From a virus: 28,953 bases of DNA. Positions 4,071 to 26,964 of the stretch are shown here, one piece after another. The stretch spans positions 1 to 28,953 of IMG/VR virus record IMGVR_UViG_3300044971_000211, one strand, 5' to 3'. Every line of letters starts with the position of its first letter. Positions within the stretch are counted from its first letter, which is position 1. A model generated the notes under the pieces. It searched no databases. It saw nothing but the letters and a program-made list of their open reading frames with translations, and was not told the DNA's origin. Position numbers and translations under genes: made by a program.

Positions 4071-4081
4071 GGAGAAATATC

Positions 4082-4492: not shown

Positions 4493-4520
4493 TGTTTGTC
4501 AAAGGCAAAGTCTAACGTGC

Positions 4521-6585: not shown

Positions 6586-6603
6586 TACGTGGGAAAATGA
6601 ACC

Positions 6604-9129: not shown

Positions 9130-11238
9130 ATGAACCAACAAACTGCACAAGGACTCGCTTCGCTTGGTCGCGGACCGGACTCTATGCTGGTACACATGGC
9201 CCCCCAAGAGGTTGCGGGTCTGCAAGCGCTTGCCATGAAACACGGCGGCTCCCTCACAATTAACCCAGAAACAGGTCTACCAGAGGCAGGCTTCCTGTCA
9301 ACCATCTTGCCTATGGTGGCGGGCTTTGCGCTTGGCCCTGCCGGGTTTGGGCTGATGTCTTCCGCTATGGCGGGTATCACGGTTGGGGGCATTTCTGCTC
9401 TTACTTCCGGCAGCTTGTCCAAGGGTTTGATGGCCGGTCTTGGCGCGTATGGCGGTGCTGGACTAGGCGAAAGCCTGATGGGCGCGGGTACAGGGTCGTT
9501 GTCTTCTGCTGCTGGCGCAGGCGCACCGCAAGTAGCTGCTGAATCTATTGTTCCTCAAGCCGCTATGCCTGCGGCCACTAATGCTGCGGCTACTAATGTT
9601 GCGGCTACTAATGTTGCGGCAGCGGCTCCGGATGTTTTTGGGGGCACAGCAAACGAAATTGCCAGCGCCTACGGGTACCCAACACTTGCAGCTCCAACAG
9701 TGCCTGCAATCAACGCAGCGCAAATAGTCCCAACAGTTACACAGGCCCCCGTTGCTGCATCTGTGTACGCGCCAGCCGAAAGCATGGGCGCGGCGTTAGC
9801 ACGAGATCAAGCCGCCGCACAAGCTGTTGGCAGTAAACTGGCCTCAACAGGAGCCGCAGATACACTTGGCGCAGGGTTTAAGGCTATTACGGCCAGCCCT
9901 AGTGCCGCGCTGGAGTTTGCCAAAGCCAACAAAATGACGCTTGGTGCACTAGGCATTTCCGCCCTTGCGGGTATGCAGCCAGACGACTTGAATGCCCCGG
10001 AACAAAACCCCGGCATGATCCGCCCATACACATACGCCCGCACTAAAAATAAAGAAGCGTTTGAGGACGTGGAAGGCACACCGTTGTCGTCTAAAGAACG
10101 CCGGTACTTTGATGAAAAATACGCAGCGCTTACCCCCTACAAGGCCCCCGGCGCAGAGTACATGGCAGAGGGTGGCCCTGTTGAGGACATGTCAAATGCC
10201 AACGCTATCGGCATGAACACCGGCTACCCCCAGTCAGACATCCGTGCAGGCGCGTACGCAACCCCGTACCAACAGCCAATTAGCCGCAATGTAGTCACAG
10301 GGGCACAGGACGCGGCTGTCAACCCATACACAGGCCAACCGCAGTTTGCCGAAGGTGGCTCCGTAGGCGGCTACACATACGACCCTGAGACGGGTATCTA
10401 CACCAAGAAGGGTGGCACGGGAGCCACAACGGTTTCTCCTATTGGGGGCATTTCGGGGGCCAGTGGTTCAAGTGACATGCAGCCGATGGACCCGAAAACG
10501 CTTGAATTTCTTGAGAAAGAGACTCCTGCTGAGCGTGAATCTCGTATGCTGGGGATTAACAGCCTTTTGCAAAACGCAGTGAACTTTGCCGTCCCCGGCG
10601 TGGGGTTTGTAAACTCATTGCCCGGCATGTTGTCAAGCGCAACTGCTGGCCAAATTGCAAACTTTTTTAATCCCCCCGGCGCGGTTAATTACGATATTCC
10701 TGTGGTAGATGCGGTTCCGACATTTTATACACCCGAAGGTAGATACGGCTTCACGGCTGAGCAACCGGGAACCCCCTCTCCAGATAGTGGTGGCGGTAAC
10801 CAATCTGGTAACTCAGAAACTGGGGGCCAAGGTACAGGTGACGGCGGTGCGGGTAGTGGTGGCGGGCGAAGCGCGGGTGATGCTCGTGGCGGGTTCTACA
10901 ACAACGGCAAGTTTGACCAGCGCCCAGCAAACATGGCTCAAGGCGGCATCTCCAATCTTGGCGACTACTCCGACGGCGGCAGACTTCTGCGTGGCCCCGG
11001 TGATGGCGTGTCCGATGACATTCCTGCAATGATTGGCCAAAAACAGCAAGCCCGTCTTGCCGATGGTGAGTTTGTAGTCCCTGCGCGAATTGTGTCCGAG
11101 CTGGGTAACGGCTCCACCGAAGCTGGCGCTCGTCAGTTGTACGCCATGATGGACCGGGTGCAGAAAGCCCGCAAGAAAACAGTCGGCAAAGACAAAGTGG
11201 CAACAAATAGCAGGGCAGCTAAACTTCTACCGGCATGA
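9130..11238 (+). CDS. Large internal/ejection-type virion protein
   Basis: A 702-residue protein with GAGGACTCC before ATG. Residues ~55-130 are a long Gly/Ala/Leu hydrophobic stretch (PMVAGFALGPAGFGLMSSAM and following), likely membrane-inserting; ~130-260 is Ala-rich with AATN repeats. The middle and C-terminal parts are Gly/Pro-rich and carry three copies of the motif A-x-GG-x: MAEGGPV at 345, FAEGGSV at 406, MAQGGIS at 602. Near the end is a distinct block, RGPGDGVSDDIPAMIG followed by ARLADGEFVVPARIV (residues ~620-655) and NGSTEAGARQLYAMMDRV, seen in many environmental phage proteins. Membrane-active N terminus plus neighbours suggest a DNA-ejection or inner-core protein. The next gene starts within its stop (ATGA). 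Confidence 0.65.
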   Translation: MNQQTAQGLASLGRGPDSMLVHMAPQEVAGLQALAMKHGGSLTINPETGLPEAGFLSTILPMVAGFALGPAGFGLMSSAMAGITVGGISALTSGSLSKGLMAGLGAYGGAGLGESLMGAGTGSLSSAAGAGAPQVAAESIVPQAAMPAATNAAATNVAATNVAAAAPDVFGGTANEIASAYGYPTLAAPTVPAINAAQIVPTVTQAPVAASVYAPAESMGAALARDQAAAQAVGSKLASTGAADTLGAGFKAITASPSAALEFAKANKMTLGALGISALAGMQPDDLNAPEQNPGMIRPYTYARTKNKEAFEDVEGTPLSSKERRYFDEKYAALTPYKAPGAEYMAEGGPVEDMSNANAIGMNTGYPQSDIRAGAYATPYQQPISRNVVTGAQDAAVNPYTGQPQFAEGGSVGGYTYDPETGIYTKKGGTGATTVSPIGGISGASGSSDMQPMDPKTLEFLEKETPAERESRMLGINSLLQNAVNFAVPGVGFVNSLPGMLSSATAGQIANFFNPPGAVNYDIPVVDAVPTFYTPEGRYGFTAEQPGTPSPDSGGGNQSGNSETGGQGTGDGGAGSGGGRSAGDARGGFYNNGKFDQRPANMAQGGISNLGDYSDGGRLLRGPGDGVSDDIPAMIGQKQQARLADGEFVVPARIVSELGNGSTEAGARQLYAMMDRVQKARKKTVGKDKVATNSRAAKLLPA

Positions 11239-11687
11239 ACATTGTGTATGAAGACACCCCGCCAATGCAGTTTCTGGAAGAGCTTAAACCGCTGTTCCCG
11301 ATTCACTATGACGAGCTGTGTGTCACCAAGGACTTCCCGTTAAAACCAGACTACGAAGCCTACACAAGACTGAACAGCGCCGGGATGTTGCGGTGCATTA
11401 CTTGCCGAGCAGATGATGAGTTGATAGGGTATGCGATCTTTGTTGTGCAGCCGCATTTACACTACAGTACGTGCCTTACTGCCTTTGAAGACATTTATTT
11501 CATCAAGAAAGAATTTCGTAAGGGGCGGATCGGAATCCGACTGTTCCAGTACGCGGAGAGTGCGCTTAAACGTGTGGGGGTCAACCGCATCATTATGCAC
11601 ACCAAGATTCACATGGACAATTCTCGGTTGTTTGAGTACTTGGGGTACAAGATGACTGACAAGCTATTTACAAAGATACTGGATTAG
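11235..11687 (+). CDS. GNAT-family N-acetyltransferase
   Basis: A 150-residue protein with ATGA overlap to the upstream virion gene and no clear Shine-Dalgarno of its own, so translation is probably coupled. The GNAT core is visible: LIGYAIFVVQPH strand (~63-74), EDIYFIKKEFRKGRIGIRLF (~85-104) with the acetyl-CoA pyrophosphate-binding R-K-G-R-I-G-I-R loop, then helix QYAESALKRVGVNRIIMHT and the closing NSRLFEYLGYKMT. In this superfamily the enzyme moves acetyl from acetyl-CoA to an amine on protein or small molecule. Being inside the ejection-protein block, it may modify virion proteins or act early in the host; substrate unknown. Confidence 0.85.
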   Translation: MNIVYEDTPPMQFLEELKPLFPIHYDELCVTKDFPLKPDYEAYTRLNSAGMLRCITCRADDELIGYAIFVVQPHLHYSTCLTAFEDIYFIKKEFRKGRIGIRLFQYAESALKRVGVNRIIMHTKIHMDNSRLFEYLGYKMTDKLFTKILD

Positions 11688-11696
11688 GAGCCCTCT

Positions 11697-12812
11697 ATGA
11701 GCTATTCCCGCAGACAACTCTACGCAGCAGGCGAGCCGTTTGGCGAGGGTGCTACGCGCCACAAAGTTGGTGGTCGTGTCTATGGCGGCGGGGGTAGTTC
11801 AGCGCCAGCTCCAACAAGCACAACCAATACAACAACCAGCATCCCTGACTACGCCAAGCCGTATGTTGAGAAGATGCTCGGCAAGACGGAGGCGCTCTCT
11901 GAGACCCCGTACCAGACCTACGACCGTGACCGGATTGCAGGGTTTACCCCAATGCAGCAGCAGGCGTTCCAAGGCGCTCAGGGGATGCAGACTTCTGGCC
12001 TGACGGGTCTTGGCGGGCAGTATGCAGGCGCGGCTACGCTGGGCGCTCTGGGTACAAACTACGACCCCACCCAGTTTCAAGGCGGGCAATTTGGCCAGCA
12101 AGACGCGCAGCAATACATGTCCCCGTACATGCAGAGTGTTGTTGACATCCAGCAGCGAGAAGCCCAACGTCAAGGTGACATTGCCGGTACACAACTAGCG
12201 GGCCAAGCCACTAAATCAGGCGCGTTTGGCGGGGGCCGTCAAGCCATCATGGAGGCCGAAGCTGCCCGGAATCTGGCTACGCAAAAGGGCGACATCCAAG
12301 CGCAGGGCTTGCAGTCCTCATACCAGCAGGCGCAAGCCCAGTTCAATGCCGACCAAGCTCGTCGTATGCAAGCGCAGCAGCTTTCGGAGCAGTCCAAACA
12401 GTACGGCGCGGGTCTCGGCCTTCAAGGTCTTCAGACTGCGTTACAAGGCGCGGGTCAGATGGGCACGCTTGGCGGTCAGCAGTTTGCGCAGGGTATGGAC
12501 ATTAACAAGCTCCAGCAGTCTTACGGCACGCAGCAACAGCAGCAAGAACAGAACATCCTGTCGCAGCAGTATCAGGACTTCCTGAACCAGCAGAACTATC
12601 CATACAAACAGTTGGGCTTTCAGTCTGACATGCTGCGCGGTCTGCCGCTGTCACAAGCGTCTCAACAGATGTATCAGCAGCAGCCCTCGTTGTTGTCTCA
12701 AGGGGCGGGTCTCGCCACCGCAGGCTACGGCATAAGCCGCATGGCAGATGGCGGCGCAGTAGAACAACGACCTGCCGGTCTGGCCGAGTTGGCAATCTCA
12801 AGAATGGCGTAA
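11697..12812 (+). CDS. Gln-rich internal/ejection-type virion protein
   Basis: A 371-residue protein with AGGAG six bases before ATG. N-terminal ~45 residues are Ser/Thr/Gly-rich with KVGGRVYGGGGSS. Then DYAKPYVEKMLGKTEAL and DRDRIAGFTPMQQQAF (~75-90), followed by a Gln/Ala-rich helical region with YMSPYMQSVVDIQQREAQRQ (~140-160) and AFGGGRQAIMEAEAARN (~175-192). Long Gln-rich coiled helices (190-310) fit proteins that line the ejection tube of podoviruses. Near the C terminus is MADGGAVE (residue 349), the motif shared with both neighbours. No enzyme motif seen. Role as an ejection protein (P22 gp7/gp20 position) is inferred from context. Confidence 0.65.
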   Translation: MSYSRRQLYAAGEPFGEGATRHKVGGRVYGGGGSSAPAPTSTTNTTTSIPDYAKPYVEKMLGKTEALSETPYQTYDRDRIAGFTPMQQQAFQGAQGMQTSGLTGLGGQYAGAATLGALGTNYDPTQFQGGQFGQQDAQQYMSPYMQSVVDIQQREAQRQGDIAGTQLAGQATKSGAFGGGRQAIMEAEAARNLATQKGDIQAQGLQSSYQQAQAQFNADQARRMQAQQLSEQSKQYGAGLGLQGLQTALQGAGQMGTLGGQQFAQGMDINKLQQSYGTQQQQQEQNILSQQYQDFLNQQNYPYKQLGFQSDMLRGLPLSQASQQMYQQQPSLLSQGAGLATAGYGISRMADGGAVEQRPAGLAELAISRMA

Positions 12813-12821
12813 GGGTAAACC

Positions 12822-14459
12822 ATGATTAACGTCAATCAGATCACTTCTCAACTGGCCCGGATGCCAGATCAAGCGTTGCAGCAGTACGCCATGATGCACA
12901 AGAACGACCCGTACACGGTGTCGCTGGCGCTGTCCGAGTCCAACCGCCGCAAGCAGATGCGCGATGCCGCGCAGGGCCAGCAAGGTATGGGCGAACAGCC
13001 CAAGGTAGTAGACCAAGGTATTGCAGAGATGCTGCCACAGGCTCCCCAGCCCATGCCAGAAGATGTGGGTATTGGCGCTCTCCCAGCGCCCAACATGCAG
13101 GGCATGGCCGGTGGCGGCATCGTGGCGTTTGGTGACGGCGGAGAAGTTCAACGCTTTCAAACCGGGGGGGTTCCCCGTGTTGGATCACACGGACTGGCCT
13201 CGATAATTCCAGACAAAACAGGCTACGAAGGCATGGGGATTTTGGAATTTTTGCAAGCCTTTGGAACGGACATGCTGAACAAGCTGCCCACCGAAGACAA
13301 AGAGCGCCTCAAACAAAATCAGGTCAAAAAAGAAGCCGCCGGTGTAGTAGACATGAGTGCGTACAGACCTCGCCCAACTATGGAAGCCGGACAGGAAGCC
13401 GCGTTGTACGAAAAAGCGGGGTTGATGCCCAGCGCTCCTGTCGTTATTCCCCCAGTAGATACGGGGGTTGTCGGCACGCAAACACCCGCTTCCAGTGTTA
13501 AAACTCCCCCTGTTGCGGGTCCTCGTCCGGCTTCTGCGCCTGCGCCTGCTGCTCCGGCAGGCTTGTCGTATCTTGACCGGTTGAAGGCTGCACAAACAGC
13601 AATGGGGCCAACCGTAAATCCCGAGCAGGTGGCAATGGACGCACTTGTTGCCGAGCGCAACAGGGGCGCAGCCGACAGCAAAAAAGAACTTGAAGCGGAC
13701 ATTGCATCCCGCGCTGACCAGTTTAAAAACCGGGAAGAGCGTACTAACAAACGTCAAACCGAGTTGGATAAGTCCAAAGATGCCAACACCGGCATGGCAC
13801 TCCTTGAAGCGGGTCTGGCAATGATGCAGTCTCGCGGTCCCGGGCTTGCTGGCATTGCTCAAGGCGCTGGAGTCGGCCTCAAACAGTACCAGTCCGGCAT
13901 CAAAGACCTGAAAGCGGCGCAGGAGAAACTGGACGAGGCCCGTGATCGCACAGACGAGCTGAAGCAGAACCAGTCCATGATGGACAAGAGTGCCGTTCGC
14001 GCCGCAAACAAAGACATCCGGGACGCGTCATTGGCTGGGCAGCAGTACCAGATTGATGCCCGTATGAAAATTTACGGTGAGAACCGAACGGATGCCCGCG
14101 CTGGAATTGCCAGCGATATAGCTGTTTCCGAAGCCGCCAAAACGCGAGCCACGCAACTGCAAGCGGCGGGTATAGCTGCTGCACCGGGACTTGCCCGCAA
14201 CAAAATGCTGGCCGCTTCACAAAGTGATACGGCAAAAGCGCGTACGGAGTACGGCAAGTTGCAAGCCAAAGTCATGTCTGACTTGAGCGCCGACCCCCAA
14301 TACACTATGGCTACCGACGCTGTAAAGGCGCAGATGGCCACAACCCGTTTGCGTGCTGCGCTTCTGAACAATCCATTCCTGTCTGCGTATGCGGCTGGAA
14401 TCGGTTTTAGTGCTGCACCGGCAGGCACAGGTGCAGTGCGAGAGCTGGACGAAGATTGA
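12822..14459 (+). CDS. Internal/ejection-type virion protein with coiled coil
   Basis: A 545-residue protein, AAGGG before ATG. Residues 1-45 (VNQITSQLARMPDQALQQYA, NDPYTVSLALSESNRRKQMR) match a start I recall from many environmental podovirus genomes without assigned function. Residues ~95-116 hold MAGGGIVAFGDGGEVQRF, a long version of the A-x-GG-x-V motif of the two genes upstream. A Pro/Ala-rich linker (~205-250) follows, then charged helices and coiled coils (~265-430) with MALLEAGLAMMQSRGPGLAG in the middle. Likely a DNA-ejection protein or inner-core component acting with its neighbours and the giant protein downstream. No catalytic motif visible. Confidence 0.65.
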   Translation: MINVNQITSQLARMPDQALQQYAMMHKNDPYTVSLALSESNRRKQMRDAAQGQQGMGEQPKVVDQGIAEMLPQAPQPMPEDVGIGALPAPNMQGMAGGGIVAFGDGGEVQRFQTGGVPRVGSHGLASIIPDKTGYEGMGILEFLQAFGTDMLNKLPTEDKERLKQNQVKKEAAGVVDMSAYRPRPTMEAGQEAALYEKAGLMPSAPVVIPPVDTGVVGTQTPASSVKTPPVAGPRPASAPAPAAPAGLSYLDRLKAAQTAMGPTVNPEQVAMDALVAERNRGAADSKKELEADIASRADQFKNREERTNKRQTELDKSKDANTGMALLEAGLAMMQSRGPGLAGIAQGAGVGLKQYQSGIKDLKAAQEKLDEARDRTDELKQNQSMMDKSAVRAANKDIRDASLAGQQYQIDARMKIYGENRTDARAGIASDIAVSEAAKTRATQLQAAGIAAAPGLARNKMLAASQSDTAKARTEYGKLQAKVMSDLSADPQYTMATDAVKAQMATTRLRAALLNNPFLSAYAAGIGFSAAPAGTGAVRELDED

Positions 14460-14542: not shown

Positions 14543-17500
14543 ATGGCTAAATATCTACCTTTGCCGGATGGCTCCTCGCTTAAAGTCCCAAACGACATGC
14601 CGTACGAGGAGGCAATGGCAAAGGCGCAAGCCAAGTTCCCCGAACTGTTTGCAAAAGCGCCAGCCCCCGGCGAAGGCCCGGAATCAGGCTTCACCCCCGC
14701 ACTTAAAGCAGGTTACTCTGGACTCAAATCCGGCCTTGCTGCGCTCGCTGGCAAAACCGGCATCATGGACGAAGAAGCTGCTGCCAAGTACATGCAGGAG
14801 CAAGAGGAATACCAGAAGAAGACCTTCAAGCCCACAGCGACTTTTGGCGAGGCCCCGGTCACTAAAACCCTTGAGTTGCTTGGCGGTTCCGCGCCATACA
14901 TGGTTGCGCCACTGATCGCGGGTGGAGCGGCTGCTTCAGCTCCTGTGTCTGGCGCTCTTGGTTTGGGCGCTCTTGGTGCGTCAATTCTTGGGGGTACGGC
15001 TGCGGGTGCGGCTTCTGCCGCCCAGTTCACGGGTTCCAACTTGCAGCGTCAGTTGGAAGAGGACAAGAACCTCAAACTGGGGCAGACTGATCTTGGCGCT
15101 GCGGCTTTAGCTGCCATCCCACAGGCTGCGCTTGATGTAATTAGCTTGAAGATGCTGCCGGGTATTCGCAACATTCTGTCTGCGGGCGGGAAAGAAGTCT
15201 CTAGTGCTGCTGCCAAGAAGTTTGCAGAGCAGGGCCTCAAAGAAGTTGCCAAAGACTACGCCGCCGCCACAGGCAAGGCAATGACTGCCGGAGCTTTGAC
15301 TGAAGCTGGGCAACAAATTTTGGAGCGTGCGCAAGCTGGGTTGGAGATCACGGACGAGAAGGCGCGGGCTGAGTACTGGGACAGCTTGGTCGGCGGTGCG
15401 GTTCTTGGCGGCGTGTTGTCGCCTGCTGGCCGTTACGTTGAGCGCCGGGGCGAGGCCAGAGTCGCAGAAGGCGAGAAGTTTAAAGAAGCCCAAGCAGCAC
15501 GAGTTGAGGAAGAAGCCCGCATCAAAGAGGAAACCGCTGAGCGTTCGAAGCCGGAGTACGCTTTCAAGGTAGTGGCTGACTACGAAGAATTTGAGAAACA
15601 AAAAGCTGCCCTGAAAGCGCAGATTCGCAAAATAGAGAAGGGCTCTCCAACTGAGCTGGCAGACACAGAATTTAACAAAGCCCTAAACAAACAGCTAAAT
15701 AAGCTGGGTAAAGACGCAGAGCCGCTTGCCAACGAGTACAACCGCGTTCTGCCAATCGTTGCCAAAGAAAAAGAAGCCGCCCGTCTTGCAGGCATGACGC
15801 CTGAAGAGTACATGCTGGAGACAATGCCTGTCCCAGAGGCAGCTACGCGCACGCGTGAGCAGCGGGGGGCGTCATTAAATGCAGGGCCGGAAGCCGCCGC
15901 TGCGCGACTGGCCGAAGCTGGCGTGGAGCAATTTGAACCTGTTGTGCCTTCGGAAGCGCCGGGGCCGGAGACACAGTATGCCGAGGAACGCGTTACGCTG
16001 GCGCGGGAGCAGCAACCAGCCGCTGACGCCAAGGACTATGTTGACTACTTGATGGAAGACCCCGCAATGGCACGCGCCGTTGCAAAAAACCGTACGCCGT
16101 TGCCCGGTCTTTCTACCGATGAGCAAGGTGCTGTGCATGGTGCGCTGCGTTTGAAGTTCAAAGCGGAAGACGCTGCCGCAGCCAAAGTTGAGGCTACTGC
16201 CACCAAAGAGGAGATGACGCAGCGTGCCGAAGACCTCAAGGCGCAGAAGACTACGGAAGACAAAGACCCACTGGCGCTGCTGCGAGAGTCAATGGCCGGT
16301 GAGGAAGAGATTCGCACAACTGGCGAAGCCAACTTTGACTACCTTGACCCGATCTTTGAGAAAGCAATGGAAGGCCAGCAGCCTGTTGTAGCGGTCAATC
16401 CAGCTGTCAAGCCATCACGCGATGCCAAGCGCATCAAGACCAACATCGATACGCTGACCAAAGCCATCGATACAGCCGAGCAGGACTACATTACTGCTAA
16501 ACGTGCGGGGGAGTCTTCCGCAGCATCTGCTGCTTTTGGGCGCGGCAACCAAGCCATTGAACAGCTTCAGCAGTTTGAGCAGGACGAGGCCGGTGGCGCG
16601 TACGCCCAGTCGGTTTTGAAATCCCGTAACGATCAGCAAGCAGCGCTGAACTCCGTTGAAGAGAGCCTTGACAGACTACGCAAAGGCGAAGTGCTGAGCG
16701 AAGACAAGATGGCCTCAAGCACTCAGGCGGGCTTGGTTACCCGCTCCGAAAAAGCACGGGCAGACTTTATTAAGGCAGTGCTGCAAGAAGCCGCTACCCA
16801 CCGACGTGCCAACGGCCAGCCCGCCATGACCACAGACGAAGCCGTCAAGGCCGCGTCAGAACTTTACGACACCTTCAATGAGTGGATCAAGCGCGTACAG
16901 AACGAGCCAAAGCGCGATACATCTGAGGCGGTGATGGTTGAGCCTGCGCAGATGCGGGCAAACAAGTTGGTCAGAGAAGCCCGTTACGAGCAACGCAAAG
17001 TCTTTGACTCACGCCCAATCGAGGGCTACAGGTTTGGCGCGTACCCACAGGCCGTGCAGGTAATGAAAGACCAGCTTGACCAGATTCGGGACAGACTGGG
17101 CCAAGTCGATGTACGGGCTGAGAAGATTGAGCCGCTGCTCAAGACGCAGTTTGCCACCACAGAAGCCGAGAAGACCGCTGAAGCGCGTGGTGAGAACACA
17201 AAAACTCTGTCAGGTGAGCTGCGGCGCAGGTCTGATTACGTTGGCAACATGCTGGAAAAGGCTTTCACACGCAATATCCCAGAAGAGTTGCGCGAAGTAC
17301 TGGAGCAGGCACAGGACGTTATTGTTCGTGGTAAAGCATCGCGGAACCTACTTGATGCGGTTGAAGTTCAAGCTGGCCGGATTCTTCGGGGCGAAGACAC
17401 GGGCACCAAGATTGTTCCACAACGCAAGGTGATGGACGAAGGCCGTCCCGTATACGAAGTTACCCCCGATGGCACTATGCGGCAAGGCATTCGCGGACGG

Positions 17501-20500
17501 CGGACGGCAGATGTGGGCAAGACGGTAGCGCAAGCCCCGGTTAGTGAATACATGCAGGACATTAAAGACGCGCTTGCAGCATACCGGCAGTTGGAGCAAG
17601 GCAGTGAGACGGTTGGTAAGGTTGAGGGTCAGCAGGAGATGTTTGCTCCCTCCAAACAGTTTGGTACGATTCGAGCTACGGCGGAGAGTTTCAACCGCTC
17701 CCCGATGGTGCTGAAAGCCCGTGCCGCAATAGCCCGTGCTGCCGATGCACTGAAGCAAGCCAACCGCTACTCCGACGTAATGAAGCAACGCAGCGAAGCT
17801 ATTGCGCTGTTTAACAAGCAGATTGACGACGCTCAGTCTGGTATGGAGGGGGCAAAGTGGCTGAGCATGGCCTTCCCCAAAGTTGGCACAAGCCTTGGTA
17901 AGTTTGAGCCGCGTGTACCAACCGCCGCAGAAACAAAAGCCGACCCAAAAGTAAAAGCAAAATACGATGCCGCCAAGGCCGTGGCGGACAAGTACAACAA
18001 GTGGGTCGATACAACCAACGAGCAGAACACATTGCTGCTTTCGGAAAACTTACAGGCACCTGCCAACGTCAAGGCTGGAGCTATTGCCAAACAACTTGTG
18101 GAAATGAAGAAGGGGCTTCTCAGCGCCATCGATACGTACGCTGCCCGTGTAGCGCCCAAACCAACCGCCACTGCTCGGACCAAAGAAAAGTTAGCTGTAC
18201 GTATTGACGCCGCCAAAGACCTTGAAGCCGAGCAGCGCGGTAAGTTGCAGCAAGCGGTTGATCTTGCGGTCAGAGATAAGCGGATGGCAATGGAAGCTGC
18301 GCAAGAAGCCTTAAAACCAAAGATTGCGGAACTGCAAAAATCATTGGCCGAAACCGAAGCCACTTTGCAAAAACGGTACGAAGCTGCTGACGCCGAAGGC
18401 ATTTCCCCTGACAGCAAAGCCCGGATTGATGCTCTGTTAAAAGAAGTTACAGACTCGCGCACAAAAATTGACGCCATGCAAAACGAAGCGCAAGCTACGT
18501 TTGATACGACTGCCCTAGTGGCCGCAGCACACACCGACAATAAAGTTAAGTTTGAGTTTCGCGTATTGGCTCGTTTGCAAAAGAATGTAGCTGACTTGGT
18601 GGCTAGACGCAAAGAAGTTGCGCCGCCAGATATTGCCGCTGCTGCCCGTGCTGCCGAAGAACAACGCAAGGTAGCTGATCGCGCTGATGCGCTTGCCCGC
18701 GAAGAAGCCGCTAAAGCCGCTAAAGATAAACGTGATTTAGAACAACGTCTGTTCACAGTCCAGAGCGCCGGTATCAAAGGCGTCGAACGTCTTGTTGGTG
18801 GCCAGCGTGTGCAGGTGTTAACAGCCCAACAAGCAAAAGAACGCAAGGCTCTTGACGATGCCGCCAAGAATGCACGCGAAGCTGCGGCTGTCAGTGTTCG
18901 TGCCGAAAGTGCGCAGGCCCAAATTGCCTTCGAAACAGAGAAGAAAAAACAAGGCAAGCGTGCCATCGGCCCCGTCACCCGCGAAGAGACTGCTGCGCCA
19001 TCACAGTTCCGCGCTGGTACTGAAGAGAGCAAAGCCGGTGAAGGTCGGACTTCAACCAAACAAACGCTGTCGGAAGCCCGTGGCGTCAAGTCGCGTGACG
19101 TGCCGATCAGCAAGAAAGAAATGGCGGAGGCAAACATTGACGCGCTGCGTCAAAAAGTTTCTGATGCGCGAGAAGAAGCGCTCATGGTTACGCAGATGCT
19201 TAGCGTGGCCCGGACGACAGAGAGTCCTGCGCTGTTGATAAAGGCAAACGCGGCTGAAACCCGTTTGGAAGATGCTTTGCAAGAGCTGAAGGATGCGGTA
19301 GACGCCACCAAGACCGCCGCTGAGCGCAAACGGGAAGCCGCCGCGCAGGCTAAGCTGGACGCAGTTGAGAAGTTTCAGTTCTCGCGTGGCGTCAATGTTG
19401 ACGGGCAAAGCAAGAAAGACCTTAACAAAGAACTCACCACTGCTATGGGCGAGTCAGTCACAAATCGTGGCAAGGTAACCATTTACCAGAACGCAAAAGA
19501 AGCCAACGACACAGGTAACTTTATTGAAGTCATCCCAGATGATGCCAAAGGTTTTGTTGCTGACGGCAAAGCGTACCTGATTGCTGACAACATTGGCCGT
19601 GGTCACGGACTTGGCGTGCTGCTGCACGAGCTTGGTGTACACATCGGGTTCAGAAACTTCTTTAACGCCAGCGAGTACAACGCGCTGGTAAAGACTGTAA
19701 AGAACTGGGCTACTAAAAAAGACGGATCGATTGAGTCTGAAATTGGCCAAGCCGCCATAAACCGCGTTGAGGCCGCAAAGACACCGGAAGATCAAGTAGA
19801 CGATGAGTTGTTGGCCTACGCTATAGAAGAAGCCATTCAGAGGGGCGTGTCTCCAGACGGGGTAAAGAATGGCCGCGCAGCCCACAACTGGCTGCAAATA
19901 ATCTTTAAAGCGTTCAAGAACGTGTTGAAGAAGTTTGGCATTGACTCCGACTCACTGACTGTTGGCGACTTGGTTAATTTGGCCCACGGCGCTGCGCAAC
20001 TGGAACTCAAGGGAACTTGGCACGGAACACGCGCAGAGTTTGACGCGTTTGACTTTAAGTACATGGGCACCGGCGAAGGTGCGCAAGCGTTTAGTTACGG
20101 AACTTACACGGGCGACACTACTGATGTTGCCAAAAGATATCAGGGAATTGGAGCGCAAAAAGCGTTGCCAGCGTGGAATGCACTGCCTGAGATCGAGCGG
20201 TGGAAAAAATCGCAAGCGCCTAAATTTAACGGTTTTGTCGAAGAGGATTTTTTAATTCCTATAGGTGATACAGGCGGCGTACCAGCAAAGTTTAAAGATC
20301 TAATTCGCTCGGCTTTGGCGGAGTACGAGAGCCGCGTTAGCTTTGGCGTCAGTCTATACGATTCTCCTGCAAAAGAGTTCAAGACTATTTTGGAAAAACT
20401 AGCCAATAAACAAATGCAGAATTCTGGTGTTCGCCCCGGTATGGTGCTTGCTAGGCCAATTCGTTTTACCGCAGCAATGGCTCGACAGAATGTTGCCGCT

Positions 20501-23500
20501 TTTCGGGCAGGTCTGCCCAAACCAGAGCGGAATAAAGTGTCCGCACTTGAAACCGAGCAAAAAGCGTGGCTAGATTCTCTCGACTACAGCAAGTTTCAGG
20601 CAGTTACTACCGAACCTGTGTACAAAGGGTACACGTACCACGAACCGACTCCTGAATACACCGATACTGATAGAACAGGGGCGGCTGTACTGTTTGAGTT
20701 AGTAGAGTACCCAAAAAACCCAGACGCCCCTTTTAAAGAACGTGTAAAAGATGCCATAGAAGCTGTACGCAAAGACGCCCAACGGCACAAAAAGCTGTTT
20801 AGTGGCGGCAAATCTCCGTATTACAAAGATAGCGTGCGCATTCTTGCGACCTTGGACAAGTTGGACTTGGCTGATTTTGTGTTTAACCCACCAACAGCGC
20901 CGCCAGTGCCGCAGCCAACAGGCACCATGCTGCGCACAGTACGCACACGCCCAGAAATAGACTACCTGCTGTGGGACGCCCCGGCAGATAAGCAATCGCG
21001 TGTCGTTGAAGAAGCCTTTGCCAGAGTGCTTGACAAGATGACAACCAGTCAGACCCAAACTTTCTGGAGAATACTGCGCGAAGAACCAAGAGGTAAGGAC
21101 GTGTACACAGCGCTATCAAAAGCGCTAAGCCCTGACGGACTTAACAAAAACGACCGAGCTACCTCACTTGCGCTTTTTGCAGAAGGCGTGGCAGGTAACA
21201 AGTTTTTGGACGGCGTGTCACGAGACAAGCCCGTCACCAACAAATCAACATACAACTACGTGGACTTCGGTGATTTGGATACCGTGTCCGTTGTTGTTGG
21301 GGCCAACATTGACCCAATTGGGCAAGCCGCAGGTATTTTGTTTTCTAGAAAACCAACGTACGCTAACCCAGAGATGGAGCGCCTTGGTAGAACAACTGAC
21401 AAGTTTGTTGCCAAGAACAAGACAATGTTTGAGAAGATCAGAGCAGCCGCCACCGGGATTTCATTTGAGACCATGCTGGTTGACCGCTTTGCGGGCTTTG
21501 AGCGTCTGGCCAAGTACATGGATCAGCTCAAGGGCTCCCAGATGCTAATGTATCTGCGCCAGTACGACCAGCGTATGCACATGGTGCAGCAGTCCATCGA
21601 GAACGGTGCCCCTATCCGTAAGGAGATCACCCGCGCTGATGGCCGCAAAGAGTACATCATTGAGAGCAAAGAAGGCGCGAACATCAAGAACGTCATCAGG
21701 ATTCTCAAAGACGCGCAGCCATACGTTGGTAACGGCGAAGCCGTCAACCGCACGTTCACCATGTACTTGGCCGCACTCCGCGCTGAGAACAAAGGGCTTG
21801 AAGCGCTGAACTTTGGTGAAGACGTTACAGAGGCCATGCTGGCGGATGTTATGAAAGCCGTTGATGGCAACGCCGCCTTGAAGAAGGTGTTCAGCCAAGC
21901 CAGAGACGAGTACAACGCTTACAACCGGGACATGATTCAGTTCTTGGCAAGCAGCGGCGCTATATCTAAGAGCACGGCAGCAATGCTGTCCGCGTCAAAT
22001 GACTACATCCCGTTTTATCGGGAGCAAAACGGCGTGGCTCAACTGCTTATTGGCGGTGAAACGCCCGTCAAACTCGGCAACATTGCTGACCAGCCACACT
22101 TGAAAGAACTGGTTGGTGGCGACAAGCCGATTCTAGACTTTATGATTAGCTCGGTACAGAACACCAACATGTTGGTGGACATGGCGATGCGCAATCTGGC
22201 AACAAAGAACGCCGTGTTTGAGTTGGTGAGTCTGAACGCCGCCAAGATTGTAGGTAAGACTGCTGGCACGGATGTGGTGAAGTTTAGAGAAGACGGCGAA
22301 GATCGCTACGCTGTTATCTCCACAGAGACAATCAAAATCGGCAATAAGGAGTTCAACACGGGCGTGCCCGCTGATGTTCTGGTAAAGGGCATGGAGGGCA
22401 TCCCCACACAGATGCCGGTGCTGCTGCGCGCTATGGCAGTTCCGTCACAGCTTTTGCGCAAAGCAATTACCCTAAGCCCCCTGTACATGGCAAAGCAGTT
22501 GTTCCGTGACTCGTTGGCCGCTCCAATCTTGGCCGGTGCTAACTTCACGCCTGTGTTTGGCGCTCTGCGGGAGATCAACAGCGCGACCAAAGGCACGCTG
22601 GAGAAACGCGGTATTGTGGGAAGTCAGTACATGATGGGTTCTTCTGAAGACATCAGCCAGATTCTGCGCACCATTAACGACGGCAAACCCGGCTGGATGA
22701 AAGCACTGGGTGCGCTTGAGGCTACGGGTATGGAGGCAGACGCGCTTACTCGCCGTGCTCAGTACAACAGCTACATCTCCCAAGGGCTGTCTGAGATGGA
22801 GGCTACCTTGCTGGCGCTGGAGTCAATGAACTTTAACAAGCGCGGCGCGTCCCCAAGCATCCACGCAGCCAATGCGCTTATTCCTTTCTTCAACGCCCAG
22901 ATTCAAGGTCTGAACGTGATGTACAAGGCCATGACGGGTAACCTGCCGTTTAACGACAGACTAAATATTCAGACCAAGTTGTTGCAGCGCGGCGCTTTCA
23001 TGGCGGGGGCCACCTTGCTCTACGCAGCAGCTATGGAGGACGACGAAGCCTACAAGAACGCCACCCCCGACCAGAAGTACGGTAGCTGGTTTGTCCGCAT
23101 CCCCGGCGTGTCAGAGCCGGTGCGTATCCCCCTGCCGTTTGAGATCGGCTACATCTTCAAGGCGTTGCCGGAGGCGATATACAACACCATGACCTCCAAG
23201 AACGGCGGTGAAGAAGCGGTCAAAGCGTTCAAGCAGATTCTGCTCAACACGATTCCGGGCGGCTCGTCCTACGGCATCCCGCAGGTAATGAAACCCGCCA
23301 TCGAAGCAGGGCTCGGCAAGTCGTTTTACACAGGTCGGGACATCTTGTCTGCGCGGGAGAAAGAGTTGCTGCCAGAAGAGCAGTTCCGGGCCAACACGGC
23401 AGACATTTCCAAAGCGCTGGGTAAGACGATGGGCATTTCCCCGATCATTTTTGAGCAGCTTGTCAGCGGTTACACGGGCACAATGGGCCTAGCTTTCCTG

Positions 23501-23935
23501 CATGCCGTCAGTCTGGGCGTGCCTAAGTCCGAGTCCCCTGAGAACGCCGTCAAACGCTTGTCCGAGTACCCACTCGTTGGCGGGGCGTTCCAGCCGAACG
23601 ATGCTGGCGGCATTATCAACAGTGTGTACGAGCGCTTCAACGAGGACATTAAAGTTCGCAACAGCGTCAAGCGCATGATTACCGAGGGCCGCACAGCGGA
23701 GGCTAAAGACCTGCTACAACGGCGCGGCAACGAGTACCTTGAGGCGGAGATGGCCGACAAGTTCAAGGCAAACATGGACAAGTTGACTGCGGCGTCGCGT
23801 GCGGTACAGGCGTCCACCATGAGCGCTGAGGAGAAGCGCAAGCAACTGGACGCGATCAAGAAAATTCAAACCGGGCTGTCTACTTATTACAGGGAGGCAA
23901 GCGATAAAACCAGACTCCTACCAAACCGTTTTTGA
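14543..23935 (+). CDS. Giant polyvalent internal virion protein: zincin-like, ART-PolyVal and LPD38-like domains
   Basis: A 3130-residue protein, about a third of the window. ATG 14543 is chosen because KYLPLPDGSSLKVPNDMPYE is a recognisable N-terminal module of such proteins. Residues ~114-163 are Gly/Ala hydrophobic, possibly membrane-inserting. Residues ~300-1640 are mostly Lys/Glu/Ala coiled coil. H1695-E1696-L-G-V-H1700 after a KAYLIADNI strand is a zincin-type site, with E1755 of DELLAYAIE a candidate third ligand. Residues ~1826-2255 read as an ADP-ribosyltransferase-like ART-PolyVal domain: H1827-G-T, FDAFD, GTGEG-Q-F-x-x-GTY (Y1855), LLWDAPADKQS (2143-2153), KFLDG (2220-2224) and TYNYVDF. 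Residues ~2290-2830 resemble LPD38 (DYIPFYR at 2487, NFNKRGA at 2763, IPFFNAQIQG). Known polyvalent proteins are thought to enter the host with phage DNA; that role here is inferred. Last gene of the late operon. Confidence 0.85.
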   Translation: MAKYLPLPDGSSLKVPNDMPYEEAMAKAQAKFPELFAKAPAPGEGPESGFTPALKAGYSGLKSGLAALAGKTGIMDEEAAAKYMQEQEEYQKKTFKPTATFGEAPVTKTLELLGGSAPYMVAPLIAGGAAASAPVSGALGLGALGASILGGTAAGAASAAQFTGSNLQRQLEEDKNLKLGQTDLGAAALAAIPQAALDVISLKMLPGIRNILSAGGKEVSSAAAKKFAEQGLKEVAKDYAAATGKAMTAGALTEAGQQILERAQAGLEITDEKARAEYWDSLVGGAVLGGVLSPAGRYVERRGEARVAEGEKFKEAQAARVEEEARIKEETAERSKPEYAFKVVADYEEFEKQKAALKAQIRKIEKGSPTELADTEFNKALNKQLNKLGKDAEPLANEYNRVLPIVAKEKEAARLAGMTPEEYMLETMPVPEAATRTREQRGASLNAGPEAAAARLAEAGVEQFEPVVPSEAPGPETQYAEERVTLAREQQPAADAKDYVDYLMEDPAMARAVAKNRTPLPGLSTDEQGAVHGALRLKFKAEDAAAAKVEATATKEEMTQRAEDLKAQKTTEDKDPLALLRESMAGEEEIRTTGEANFDYLDPIFEKAMEGQQPVVAVNPAVKPSRDAKRIKTNIDTLTKAIDTAEQDYITAKRAGESSAASAAFGRGNQAIEQLQQFEQDEAGGAYAQSVLKSRNDQQAALNSVEESLDRLRKGEVLSEDKMASSTQAGLVTRSEKARADFIKAVLQEAATHRRANGQPAMTTDEAVKAASELYDTFNEWIKRVQNEPKRDTSEAVMVEPAQMRANKLVREARYEQRKVFDSRPIEGYRFGAYPQAVQVMKDQLDQIRDRLGQVDVRAEKIEPLLKTQFATTEAEKTAEARGENTKTLSGELRRRSDYVGNMLEKAFTRNIPEELREVLEQAQDVIVRGKASRNLLDAVEVQAGRILRGEDTGTKIVPQRKVMDEGRPVYEVTPDGTMRQGIRGRRTADVGKTVAQAPVSEYMQDIKDALAAYRQLEQGSETVGKVEGQQEMFAPSKQFGTIRATAESFNRSPMVLKARAAIARAADALKQANRYSDVMKQRSEAIALFNKQIDDAQSGMEGAKWLSMAFPKVGTSLGKFEPRVPTAAETKADPKVKAKYDAAKAVADKYNKWVDTTNEQNTLLLSENLQAPANVKAGAIAKQLVEMKKGLLSAIDTYAARVAPKPTATARTKEKLAVRIDAAKDLEAEQRGKLQQAVDLAVRDKRMAMEAAQEALKPKIAELQKSLAETEATLQKRYEAADAEGISPDSKARIDALLKEVTDSRTKIDAMQNEAQATFDTTALVAAAHTDNKVKFEFRVLARLQKNVADLVARRKEVAPPDIAAAARAAEEQRKVADRADALAREEAAKAAKDKRDLEQRLFTVQSAGIKGVERLVGGQRVQVLTAQQAKERKALDDAAKNAREAAAVSVRAESAQAQIAFETEKKKQGKRAIGPVTREETAAPSQFRAGTEESKAGEGRTSTKQTLSEARGVKSRDVPISKKEMAEANIDALRQKVSDAREEALMVTQMLSVARTTESPALLIKANAAETRLEDALQELKDAVDATKTAAERKREAAAQAKLDAVEKFQFSRGVNVDGQSKKDLNKELTTAMGESVTNRGKVTIYQNAKEANDTGNFIEVIPDDAKGFVADGKAYLIADNIGRGHGLGVLLHELGVHIGFRNFFNASEYNALVKTVKNWATKKDGSIESEIGQAAINRVEAAKTPEDQVDDELLAYAIEEAIQRGVSPDGVKNGRAAHNWLQIIFKAFKNVLKKFGIDSDSLTVGDLVNLAHGAAQLELKGTWHGTRAEFDAFDFKYMGTGEGAQAFSYGTYTGDTTDVAKRYQGIGAQKALPAWNALPEIERWKKSQAPKFNGFVEEDFLIPIGDTGGVPAKFKDLIRSALAEYESRVSFGVSLYDSPAKEFKTILEKLANKQMQNSGVRPGMVLARPIRFTAAMARQNVAAFRAGLPKPERNKVSALETEQKAWLDSLDYSKFQAVTTEPVYKGYTYHEPTPEYTDTDRTGAAVLFELVEYPKNPDAPFKERVKDAIEAVRKDAQRHKKLFSGGKSPYYKDSVRILATLDKLDLADFVFNPPTAPPVPQPTGTMLRTVRTRPEIDYLLWDAPADKQSRVVEEAFARVLDKMTTSQTQTFWRILREEPRGKDVYTALSKALSPDGLNKNDRATSLALFAEGVAGNKFLDGVSRDKPVTNKSTYNYVDFGDLDTVSVVVGANIDPIGQAAGILFSRKPTYANPEMERLGRTTDKFVAKNKTMFEKIRAAATGISFETMLVDRFAGFERLAKYMDQLKGSQMLMYLRQYDQRMHMVQQSIENGAPIRKEITRADGRKEYIIESKEGANIKNVIRILKDAQPYVGNGEAVNRTFTMYLAALRAENKGLEALNFGEDVTEAMLADVMKAVDGNAALKKVFSQARDEYNAYNRDMIQFLASSGAISKSTAAMLSASNDYIPFYREQNGVAQLLIGGETPVKLGNIADQPHLKELVGGDKPILDFMISSVQNTNMLVDMAMRNLATKNAVFELVSLNAAKIVGKTAGTDVVKFREDGEDRYAVISTETIKIGNKEFNTGVPADVLVKGMEGIPTQMPVLLRAMAVPSQLLRKAITLSPLYMAKQLFRDSLAAPILAGANFTPVFGALREINSATKGTLEKRGIVGSQYMMGSSEDISQILRTINDGKPGWMKALGALEATGMEADALTRRAQYNSYISQGLSEMEATLLALESMNFNKRGASPSIHAANALIPFFNAQIQGLNVMYKAMTGNLPFNDRLNIQTKLLQRGAFMAGATLLYAAAMEDDEAYKNATPDQKYGSWFVRIPGVSEPVRIPLPFEIGYIFKALPEAIYNTMTSKNGGEEAVKAFKQILLNTIPGGSSYGIPQVMKPAIEAGLGKSFYTGRDILSAREKELLPEEQFRANTADISKALGKTMGISPIIFEQLVSGYTGTMGLAFLHAVSLGVPKSESPENAVKRLSEYPLVGGAFQPNDAGGIINSVYERFNEDIKVRNSVKRMITEGRTAEAKDLLQRRGNEYLEAEMADKFKANMDKLTAASRAVQASTMSAEEKRKQLDAIKKIQTGLSTYYREASDKTRLLPNRF

Positions 23936-24074
23936 TACCCGGCGCGGCTTTGACGGAAATCCGGTAGGGGAGCGAGGCCCGTAAGCCCGCCTCCCTTACC
24001 TTTTCTGTGTCCAGCCCCGGCACAAAGAAGCCCTCACCCTTCTTTAGCTTCGCCCACGGATACTTTATTTCCAT
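23880..24074 (-). CDS. Small 64-aa phage protein (YPW-x-K-L...G-x-FFVPG type)
   Basis: A 64-residue protein reading MEIKYPWAKLKKGEGFFVPG, then KVREAGLRASLPYRISVKAA and a closing LVGVWFYRLPPCNK. The layout (KYPW-x-xL-xxG-x-FFVP, a short helix, then a final V-x-(V/F)-x-R strand) is one I recall from many small phage early proteins of unknown function. ATG at 24074 is chosen because GAGG lies six bases upstream (24081-24084). It begins inside the 3' end of the primase-helicase gene (41-base overlap, different frame) and ends inside the 3' end of the giant + strand gene (56-base antisense overlap). Probably made from the early transcript. Possibly a small nucleic-acid or protein-binding factor; not established. 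Confidence 0.72.
   Translation of the reverse strand: MEIKYPWAKLKKGEGFFVPGLDTEKVREAGLRASLPYRISVKAAPGIKNGLVGVWFYRLPPCNK
23968..24006 (+). terminator. Possible weak terminator for the late operon
   Basis: GGGAG (23968-23972) pairs with CTCCC (23991-23995), and an inner GGC/GCC stem lies beyond a 3x3 internal loop; the hairpin is followed by TTACCTTTTCT on the + strand. It lies 33 bases after the giant gene's stop, where a late terminator is expected, but it is inside a coding gene of the other strand and the stem is imperfect. Confidence 0.3.
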
Positions 24075-26964
24075 CAAAGACCTCGTTCTTAAAGCTGACG
24101 TGCATGGCGTTGACCCGCATGCTTGGGCCGTTGGTTCGCGCCAGCATGTCTTTCTTGGTGTAGGTCACGCGGAACAGGGTCTCCATCTGGGCTTTGAACT
24201 CGTCATACCCAAAGCTCATTGTGACGCAGTGCTTTTTCATAAGCTGCTCCTCAACATAGAACTCGCGGTAGCCTTGCGTTGCCATCCCGTGCTCTACTCG
24301 CCCGAGTACCTTTGAGCGGGTTATGGAGAAGTCCTTAGTGCCATCCCCATCGCCCCAGCCCGTCATCACGATGCCATCGACTTTGCGAATCACAATGAAG
24401 TTGCCGTAGTTGTCGCCAATGTACGCGTTGAGCACATCTTCAGCCGAGCGTACGCTGCTGGTCATAACACCACGCGCCGTCTTAATCAACTTGAGCAGCG
24501 CAGCAATAATCTTGTTGACTTCTACGTCAAGAATCCCAGAGTACTCAGAGCGCAGCAGCACCGCAGCGGCCACAGTTGTTGTGCAGCCAGCGTGCCAGTA
24601 CCGCTCATCGTCCGTGAAGTTCATGGCTTTCTTCAGGTGTATGTGAACTTTGCCCACAACTTCCTCAACAGTCTTCTGGTTCTTGGCCAACCAGCGCACC
24701 CAAGCCTCGCCAGCCACCCCATAGTTACGTTTGAGTTCAAGCAGCATGGTGCGCTCTTCTGAAGTCCAGATCAGTTTCGTGTGCGGGCTCCACTCCAGCA
24801 TCCGCAGCAACTCGCCGTTTGAACTGTGCTTGCGTGCCCCAGCCATGTAGTCGGTCAGCTTCTCGTTCCCAGTCATCGTACAAGTCGATGCCCAATTGCT
24901 GTTGTTGATGCGCTCCTTGTTGGCCCCGGACTCCATCCGCTCCTTGCCCTGACCCTCGGCGTAGTCAAATATGAAAGCGGGTGCCCACTCCATGTTCTCG
25001 CGCTGTGTGCTCGTGATCTCGTCAATCAGCAGCGGCATACTCTTGAGCAAGCCAGCGCGTTGCTGCATAGCCACGGGTGATGTACTCTTGCCCGTTCTGT
25101 AGCGCAGTGGGTGCCCCCACACGCCAGCCTTGGCGCTCAGCACCAGTGATTTACCTGTACCAGACCACTGCGAACCAATGTGCCAGACGAACCCCTCGTA
25201 CTCAGTGAAGCGCATGAGTGGGGCACCGAAAGAGTCTATACATAGCGCCAACGCTATGTCCATGTCGGGCTTATTCACAAAAATTGTCTGCCACAGCTTC
25301 TGCCACTTAGACAAATCGCCGCGCCCGTTGGTGTTGCGGTTGATGTTTTCCAGCCCCGGCATAGGAACCTGTGTCTCCCGTCCGTCTGCGGTGAACACGC
25401 GGTTGTTGTACACAAAGGAGTTGTCGTCCTGCCAGCCGCACTGTGACGGCACACTAATTGGCTTGCGGTTCTGACTGGCCTCGCCCACGCAAGCGCGGAC
25501 GTACTCGTACAGAATCTTGTCGTGCCCTGCGAATGTAGACACGATGTTCTGGCTGGCCAGCCACTTCAGCGTCTCGTCTTTGCTGACAATGGACTTCTGC
25601 GGAAAGTTGAGCGTCTGCACACCTTCGGGTCGTACAGCGGCCATGTGTACCAAGTGGTCGTTCTCCATCTTCAGCAGATCAACCACAAACAAGTCGTACG
25701 GAACCAACTGAATGTTCCTCTTGACCTTCTTGCCCTCCTCATCTTCCTCGCTCTTGACGCAGTACACGCCGCCGTTCTCGCCGTAGCTGTACCCCCTTGG
25801 TGGGACAGGCCGTGTAACTGATGCGGGGCTGGAAAGCAGTGGGGCATCCGGTTCGTACGCATCCTCCGCGTTAAATTCGGCTTCCTCATCAAACTCAGTG
25901 TCAGGCACCTGTGGCGTCAGTTGGATGACTTTCTCGGTGTTGTCTTCCTTGATCTCGCGCCCTAGCACCAGCGGGTTGGTTATTTTGCCCCAGTGCTTGC
26001 ACCCCGTACAGATTCCGGGGTTCTCGCTGTCCATCTTTGTGCAGGGGTACGGGCCTTTGATCTCGGCCATCTTCTGGCGCATACGCTCTTCTGGGTATGG
26101 GTGCATGGCACTCAGCTCCAGCGCTTTCGCATCGCCGTCTTGGCAGACCTTGGCCCATGACAGCAGCCCACGCCATACCGGTTCTTTGCCGTCTTCAGCG
26201 GCGGTGTTCTTGTAGTCGGCTATCTGAGCGCAGTGCGGCTCCACGTTGGCAAACAAAGTCACGCTGTTGGCCAGCATGTTCACCTGTGCCGCGCCTTGAA
26301 CGCGCTGTGGGCGTTGACCCGGCAGGTCGATCTTTGGCTCAGGCGCTTCGTACTTCTCCTCAACGTGCTGGTATACAACGCCAGAGAACGCCGCCAGATT
26401 AAAGATGTCGCCCTCCTGCAATATGCGAACAGGGCGCGGCTTGTCGTACTTGGCCTTCATGTTGAACGTGCCGGGGACTCGCAGAATCCTCGCCAAGTCC
26501 GCTGTCACCGTCATGTCGATCTTGAAGTTGAACTGGGCGCACAAGCGCTTGAAGTTCTCAGCAACAGGTCGCCATATAGCGGCAGGGATGTCTGCGTCCA
26601 AAGGCCAGTAGGCATGCAGCCCACCACCTGAATCAACAATCCACGGCGTTCCCAGTTCTGCCAGCCCAGTGTCCTGCATGAACTTTATGAGTGCGTTGGC
26701 AGCGTCTTTCTTGGTGGCGTAGCCATCCATGTCGATGAAGAACGACTTAACGAACTGTGCGTTATCTGCGCCGCGCTTCGTGTCGAAGGCGGCTACCCCA
26801 TAGAACACATCGTATGACGCGGCTGTCCATGCGTCTATCTTGGGGATTAGGTCATCAATTGTCTCCGCATAAAAGTGCTCCTTCTTCTTTGTGAGTTCTA
26901 CCGCGCAGTACAGGCCAAGACCCGGAGACGGTAAAACCACCGCTAGAAATTCAGCGGGTGTCAT
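24034..26964 (-). CDS. Primase-helicase (prim-pol N-terminal, P-loop helicase-like C-terminal)
   Basis: A 976-residue replication protein, start supported by AGGA before ATG 26964. Residues ~1-190 form an archaeo-eukaryotic primase-like domain: D78-M-D80 for metal, SGGGLHAYWP (112-121) with the conserved S-x-x-x-x-H, and DLARILRVPGTFNMK (156-170). A Cys cluster follows (C308, C319, C322 with H324), likely a zinc site, then an acidic linker (~345-375). The C-terminal part (~420-976) is a DUF927/superfamily-3-like ATPase: Walker A GSQWSGTGKS (597-606) and Walker B LLIDEI (645-650). Such fusions both start and unwind DNA for phage replication. No DNA polymerase gene is visible in the window, so it may lie outside or the host's is used. 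It ends overlapping the next small gene. Confidence 0.88.
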   Translation of the reverse strand: MTPAEFLAVVLPSPGLGLYCAVELTKKKEHFYAETIDDLIPKIDAWTAASYDVFYGVAAFDTKRGADNAQFVKSFFIDMDGYATKKDAANALIKFMQDTGLAELGTPWIVDSGGGLHAYWPLDADIPAAIWRPVAENFKRLCAQFNFKIDMTVTADLARILRVPGTFNMKAKYDKPRPVRILQEGDIFNLAAFSGVVYQHVEEKYEAPEPKIDLPGQRPQRVQGAAQVNMLANSVTLFANVEPHCAQIADYKNTAAEDGKEPVWRGLLSWAKVCQDGDAKALELSAMHPYPEERMRQKMAEIKGPYPCTKMDSENPGICTGCKHWGKITNPLVLGREIKEDNTEKVIQLTPQVPDTEFDEEAEFNAEDAYEPDAPLLSSPASVTRPVPPRGYSYGENGGVYCVKSEEDEEGKKVKRNIQLVPYDLFVVDLLKMENDHLVHMAAVRPEGVQTLNFPQKSIVSKDETLKWLASQNIVSTFAGHDKILYEYVRACVGEASQNRKPISVPSQCGWQDDNSFVYNNRVFTADGRETQVPMPGLENINRNTNGRGDLSKWQKLWQTIFVNKPDMDIALALCIDSFGAPLMRFTEYEGFVWHIGSQWSGTGKSLVLSAKAGVWGHPLRYRTGKSTSPVAMQQRAGLLKSMPLLIDEITSTQRENMEWAPAFIFDYAEGQGKERMESGANKERINNSNWASTCTMTGNEKLTDYMAGARKHSSNGELLRMLEWSPHTKLIWTSEERTMLLELKRNYGVAGEAWVRWLAKNQKTVEEVVGKVHIHLKKAMNFTDDERYWHAGCTTTVAAAVLLRSEYSGILDVEVNKIIAALLKLIKTARGVMTSSVRSAEDVLNAYIGDNYGNFIVIRKVDGIVMTGWGDGDGTKDFSITRSKVLGRVEHGMATQGYREFYVEEQLMKKHCVTMSFGYDEFKAQMETLFRVTYTKKDMLARTNGPSMRVNAMHVSFKNEVFDGNKVSVGEAKEG

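Follow-up and report, generated by a model that had tools for sequence, protein, structure and literature searches.

A giant polyvalent protein of a probable podovirus with an exchangeable zincin-ART cassette between candidate border peptides

The giant gene and its surroundings

The stretch of DNA that was analyzed (the window) is a 28,953-base fragment of the virus record IMGVR_UViG_3300044971_000211 in IMG/VR. The frame at 14543-23935 on the plus strand is open throughout and encodes 3,130 aa, as an earlier note, made from the letters of this DNA alone, had described. The motifs quoted in that note were found at the residues that it gave: HELGVH at 1695, HGT at 1827, Y1855, KFLDG at 2220, TYNYVDF at 2236, DYIPFYR at 2487, NFNKRGA at 2763 and PFFNAQIQG at 2781. 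Full-length relatives in IMG/VR possess 2.0-3.3 kaa. The genes upstream and the non-enzymatic parts of the protein are as follows.

11235-11687, acetyltransferase-like gene (family match)
11697..12812, +, DNA-ejection-protein homologue (phrog_4287, E 5e-17)
12822..14459, +, 545-aa protein directly upstream of the giant gene, a probable virion protein by its position only
14543..23935, +, giant polyvalent protein, 3130 aa (single open frame, Pfam LPD38, full-length IMG/VR relatives)
14543..14662, +, conserved N-terminal stretch of the MAKYLPLPDGSS type, aa 1-40, candidate packaging signal
15560..19342, +, long middle region of low conservation, aa ~340-1600 (from the identity pattern among relatives)
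21350..23932, +, conserved C-terminal module with LPD38, aa 2270-3130 (common to many relatives)
23042..23578, +, Pfam LPD38 (PF18857), aa 2834-3012 (E 5.7e-30)

The N-termini are alike across the family despite the diverged middle, in which aa 340-1000 show 35-42% identity in more distant relatives and aa 1000-1620 are well conserved only in the loci L002 and L011. In P1 DarB, an N-terminal stretch of 30 aa acts as a capsid signal (PMC9024508).

The C-terminal module (860 residues) is common to 80 IMG/VR loci and 150 phage records. Its LPD38 domain scored 105 bits against a cut-off of 27. The earlier note had placed an LPD38-like region at DYIPFYR, NFNKRGA and PFFNAQIQG; LPD38 is present, but these three motifs precede the Pfam domain and are part of the larger conserved module. 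AlphaFold, given 44 sequences, modelled the module poorly (pLDDT 62); with this model, Foldseek returned no significant match and the other structure-comparison rows were weak.

The giant gene is the second gene after the ejection-protein match, and a position after internal virion protein genes was also observed in the relatives L108 and L109. The order in the window is acetyltransferase, ejection protein, one gene without a family match (the 545-aa protein gave no significant one) and the giant gene. In ct8d5349 and Pelagibacter phage Lederberg, the order is tail-tube or stabilization protein, acetyltransferase, internal virion protein and LPD38 giant. The late-operon position after ejection proteins, which the earlier note had reported, is supported by the upstream phrog_4287 match and by the gene order in relatives. 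The phiARM81mr homologue bears the annotation putative virion structural protein. The virus is a probable podovirus. Judged from this setting, the giant protein is probably carried in the virion and injected with the DNA.

The acetyltransferase-like gene is kept amid virion protein genes in the window and in distant phages of this type, L108 (4171-4602) and L109 (3871-4326). Directly after the giant gene, the opposite strand encodes a 976-aa DUF927 / primase-helicase-like protein (24034-26964, -). Within the phages collection, the window has only one near-identical DNA match, over 4678-5009 (334 bases, 85%, MW202879.1, Manatee Spring phage).

In some loci, the giant gene is divided into two frames. 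These overlap in L014/L006 (2736-4247 and 4184-12355), L057 (5859-8624 and 8558-12541) and L040 (898-8613 and 8546-10192), and do not overlap in L072 (1683-3968 and 4212-8717). The split genes may reflect sequencing error, frameshift or real gene fission.

The zincin domain

19400..19987, +, zincin-type metallopeptidase domain, aa 1620-1815 (hhalign and predicted helix/strand order)
19625..19642, +, HELGVH (HExxxH), aa 1695-1700 (H, E and H invariant in 18 relatives)
19805..19807, +, E1755 in DELLAY, likely third zinc ligand (invariant)

Relatives of the zincin-ART region were drawn from IMG/VR and 18 sequences were aligned. H1695, E1696, H1700 and E1755 are invariant in all 18. By hhalign, the window zincin matched the HExxGH-class zincins that fill the same slot in the family (Prob 95.9, E 6e-9). 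The helix and strand order, predicted with modest confidence, is consistent with a zincin core, and helices cover both HELGVH and E1755. The window protein possesses the sequence pattern of a zincin, an HExxH or HExxxH helix with a Glu on a later helix. Since the Glu that matches E1755 is also invariant in both other zincin classes of the family, E1755 is likely to be the third zinc ligand. The strict HExxH pattern is absent from the window protein (it is expected in only 0.5% of shuffles), because HELGVH is an HExxxH hexapeptide. The protease-like site of the earlier note is supported as a zincin, of the HExxxH type, by profile and by invariant residues. HExxxH zincins in polyvalent proteins are already described by Iyer et al. 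2017 (PMC5512222), and we classify the window domain as a putative metallopeptidase of this polyvalent-protein type.

AlphaFold gave a poor model of aa 1620-2280 from the 18 sequences (pLDDT 64), with which Foldseek found no significant match; residues 7-176 of the model weakly resembled the zincin-fold domains of lethal factor (Z ~4). No match was obtained with the zincin-ART and C-terminal module profiles in a PDB sequence search, or by tblastn of the zincin-ART region against the phages collection. A scan of genome contigs with the zincin-ART profile detected one distant zincin only.

The HExxGH-class and HExxH-class slot zincins resemble each other weakly (Prob 39, P 3e-4). The HExxH class matches the zincin of the N4 virion RNA polymerase (Prob 94.4, E 9e-8), and this match favours a structural or regulatory zincin that, positioned ahead of a large helical module like its N4 counterpart, folds or autoinhibits the protein without proteolysis. 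In N4, the zincin and the helical part make up the C-terminal domain that autoinhibits the polymerase (PMC12633501). However, all three divergent zincin classes keep the catalytic Glu and the metal ligands without change, and the helical part of N4 did not match the LPD38 module. We regard a structural or regulatory zincin as improbable.

The ART domain

20012..21280, +, ART-PolyVal domain with a long insert, aa 1824-2246 (hhalign with both halves; PF18760)
20021..20029, +, H1827-G-T, first ART catalytic motif (H and G invariant)
20105..20107, +, Y1855, second ART catalytic motif (invariant)
20150..20887, +, variable insert inside the ART, aa ~1870-2115 (longer than the corresponding variable region in canonical ARTs)
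21209..21211, +, D2223 of the KFLD motif, probable third catalytic residue of the ART (invariant in canonical ARTs and in those of the window class)

An insert of ~250 residues separates the two halves of the ART, which were compared apart with canonical ART-PolyVal domains and were not joined across the insert. The N-half matched with Prob 98.7 (E 1.5e-16) and the C-half with Prob 99.8 (E 1.4e-29). H1827 and Y1855 are invariant in 18 of the 18 aligned relatives. The ART-like domain proposed by the earlier note is supported in both halves by the profile matches. Iyer et al. 2017 (PMC5512222) describe an H-Y-D catalytic triad with the D in strand 5; since D2223 is invariant in both ART groups, it is probably the third catalytic residue. 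The Pfam score of the window protein for PF18760 is sub-threshold (15-16 bits against a cut-off of 31.2, aa ~1823-1867) and covers the N-half only, with the insert coming next. PF18760 matched five of five tested ART-class records and none of eight tested related viral records without an ART. The ART part of the aa 1620-2280 model was poorly modelled, and tblastn with the ART of L013 against the phages collection gave no match. By profile comparison, we assign the window domain to ART-PolyVal, with a predicted activity.

In the Tunturiibacter phage Tunturi_5 (L101), an ORF at ~3547-8052, annotated as MutT/NUDIX, encodes 1501 aa with three HG[ST] ART-like starts, and the third of these aligned as an ART.

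The zincin and the ART, two unrelated enzymatic domains, lie in one frame with LPD38 on a viral contig. For Iyer et al. 2017, polyvalent proteins carry at least two such domains on one polypeptide, and by domain content the window protein is one of them. The earlier note had proposed this combination of domains and had named profile searches that find neither a zincin nor an ART fold as evidence against it; the profile comparisons matched both.

Exchange of the zincin-ART cassette

The zincin-ART region of L002, one of the two closest relatives of the window, is 97% identical to that of the window. L011, which the contig names place in the same sample as L002, is ~88-98% identical to the window on either side of the slot (91-94% DNA identity over most of the flanking sequence). 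Over 19338-21367, in contrast, L011 and the window have nothing in common, and the slot of L011 holds a different zincin, HEATGH, without an ART. Because near-identical flanks enclose a different zincin and no ART, the zincin-ART unit reads as a cassette that is swappable between close relatives. The enzyme slot of these near-identical phages is thus one that close relatives exchange.

A zincin site of one of several types lies ahead of the C-terminal module in nearly all full-length relatives, and additional inserts occur within or behind the slot in other family members. In L046, L048 and L075, an insert of ~150 residues interrupts the zincin after the HExxH helix and before the Glu helix, and its starts (MTRRRLLQAAGA, TRRKLLKGAAAA and MTRRQFLQGAGA) resemble a twin-arginine signal. 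In L051, L052, L053, L065, L067 and L079, inserts of ~700-800 residues between the zincin and the C-terminal module contain the motif PWCTG..S..GDFY.YY, which we take to be reminiscent of PcfJ-like domains.

Border peptides in the window and its family

19379..19387, +, border peptide 1, FSR, aa 1613-1615 (ahead of the zincin in ART-class relatives; codons TTC TCG CGT)
21341..21349, +, border peptide 2, FSR, aa 2267-2269 (LFSR, LLSR or LFSK in ART-class relatives; codons TTT TCT AGA)

Matched borders are visible by eye in the home family of the window. In a blind test, their signal was marginal, with P 0.024 when the windows were tight and P 0.21 when they were broad. Among 17 units of the window type, in which the ART immediately follows the zincin, the match was not significant (P 0.14). 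Enrichment of [FY][SR] is strong in the home family; since this pattern was picked on the same data, the case rests on an independent set of ARTs.

The joint between the zincin and the ART carries no border peptide in the window's family, and its sequence, GDLVN..A.GAAQLEL.GTWHG, is among the most conserved parts. The earlier note had proposed that the zincin cuts here, at aa ~1700-1830, and frees the toxin-like ART alone. The zincin directly adjoins the ART (H1700 and H1827 lie 127 residues apart), which would suit such a cut, and border-like peptides are found between zincin and ART in several other proteins, among them L160 (GIRFSMRA) and L118 (GFSQS). For the window's family, this position was rejected, as the joint is strongly conserved without such a peptide and the candidate sites lie outside the pair; a cut that frees the ART alone is very unlikely.

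Border peptides in an independent set of ARTs

Because the border signal of the home family is weak, 80 further loci with canonical ARTs were collected, including 45 giants in which no zincin immediately precedes the ART. For each ART, the preceding 15 residues were compared with the 34 residues that follow it, in the protein itself and against other proteins by permutation. For the 45 giants, the self match was 17.7 against 12.2 in permutations (z 11), a value reached in 0 of 20,000 permutations; 33 representatives gave z 8.7. Small stand-alone ARTs (n=14) matched at chance level (z 1.1), whereas 14 giants drawn at random gave a median z of 5.6. When either window was shifted by 40-200 residues, the signal was gone (z -1.1 to 2.0), and it was kept under nine choices of window and word size.

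Examples are TDRFAVA, twice in L122, RFQPV, twice in L127, NYSIG in L172, and FMPA-type peptides in L128, L138 and L147. A protein's own motif also recurs in other parts of its sequence more often than expected (P 0.002). In L147, [YF]MPA occurs seven times (0.02 expected), and each of its two ARTs is bracketed. Zincin-type sites occur in 45 of the 57 giant ART proteins, against 3.6 expected, and about a dozen, mostly of one type, possess no recognisable one. These results suggest that giant ART-bearing phage proteins carry polyprotein-like border sites, that is, candidate cut sites.

Codons at matched residues are identical in 31 of 64 cases, against 28.1 expected if they were independent. 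Since this agreement is no more than expected, the repeat is maintained as a peptide. This result bears on the idea that the peptides are scars of cassette exchange, left by short DNA homology or target duplication and without a function in the protein. Cassettes are swapped, as such scars would require, but codons agree at chance, and the two FSR copies of the window differ in all three; we find this origin very unlikely.

A further alternative takes the zincin as an effector that cuts host proteins beside the ART, with the border peptides as linkers or docking motifs. Zincins are listed as possible effectors by Iyer et al. 2017 (PMC5512222), zincin types are exchanged as effectors are, and the same source states that the N4 virion RNA polymerase stays whole. 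Linkers, however, need no protein-specific peptide that flanks a domain on both sides and is absent elsewhere, or that occurs in up to seven copies, and the small stand-alone ARTs lack the repeats. We judge an effector zincin with such linkers to be unlikely, though worth keeping in mind.

Proposed mechanism

We propose that the giant protein is a virion-borne polyvalent protein that fills the ejection-protein slot of a probable podovirus. Its N-terminus and LPD38 C-terminal module would form a fixed chassis for packaging and delivery, with an exchangeable enzyme cassette, an HExxxH zincin fused to an ART, between the two ends. The zincin may cut at the border peptides outside the cassette, FSR 1613-1615 and FSR 2267-2269, and cleavage would free a zincin-ART piece of ~650 residues. 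The freed piece is predicted to ADP-ribosylate a host target early in infection.

The model builds on the observed domains, the invariant residues, the cassette swap and the matched border peptides of other giants. Packaging, injection, cleavage, the zincin as the cutter, and the activity and target of the ART are steps that we infer from sequence. Taken whole, with injected chassis, swappable cassette, cutting by the zincin at the FSR borders and ADP-ribosylation in the host, it has in our estimate close to an even chance of being right. Somewhat more tentatively, giant polyvalent proteins may be true polyproteins, each with its own border peptide that is read by the embedded zincin to release cassettes, with FSR serving in the window protein.

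Processing by embedded zincins has been proposed before (Iyer et al. 2017, PMC5512222). Reading the border peptides as protein-specific cut sites of an embedded zincin is the simplest account of them and would fit that proposal. The same source counts against cleavage in one respect, since it describes the N4 virion RNA polymerase, which has a related zincin, as packaged unprocessed. The novelty lies in the border peptides, which can be tested: they are not described in the portions of that paper covered here, and no other report of them was found in the open-licence literature. They offer candidate cut sites in dozens of phages, the FSR pair for the window phage among them. If the model is true, the injected enzymes are exchangeable parts of a phage polyprotein system, and peptide pairs would provide a way to find hidden domains of unknown function between two copies.

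Comparison with known systems

The window protein resembles the polyvalent proteins of Iyer et al. (PMC5512222) as a giant multidomain protein with zincin, ART and LPD domains, an HExxxH motif and the H-Y-D residues. A loose comparison of polyvalent proteins with viral polyproteins was already made there. The swap of a zincin-ART cassette before an LPD38 module is specific to the window's family. The ART shares with ART-PolyVal (PF18760), in the Tox-ART-HYD2 clade, the order HG[ST], G.GxY, LLWD..Q, KxxD..SR and NYV.F, and differs in its long insert and in a single-sequence Pfam score under the cut-off.

The N4 virion RNA polymerase is likewise an ejected giant protein with a zincin beside a large, mostly helical C-terminal part, and its C1 (zincin) is the part matched by the HExxH-class slot zincins of the family. 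In contrast, the window protein has no match to a polymerase family in Pfam, NCBIfam or PHROGs, and C2 (helical) is the part without a match to the LPD38 module. The likeness to T7 gp16 is one of position only, a large late gene after internal virion protein genes, as in T7-like relatives; no sequence or fold similarity was detected in the PDB sequence search or in the fold search with the poor model. P1 DarB and its counterparts in Bcep22-like phages carry the annotation of DarB-like antirestriction proteins and are likened to the window protein by description and not by sequence. They are very large virion-borne proteins, and the DarB-like homologue of JC1 was found in virions by mass spectrometry.
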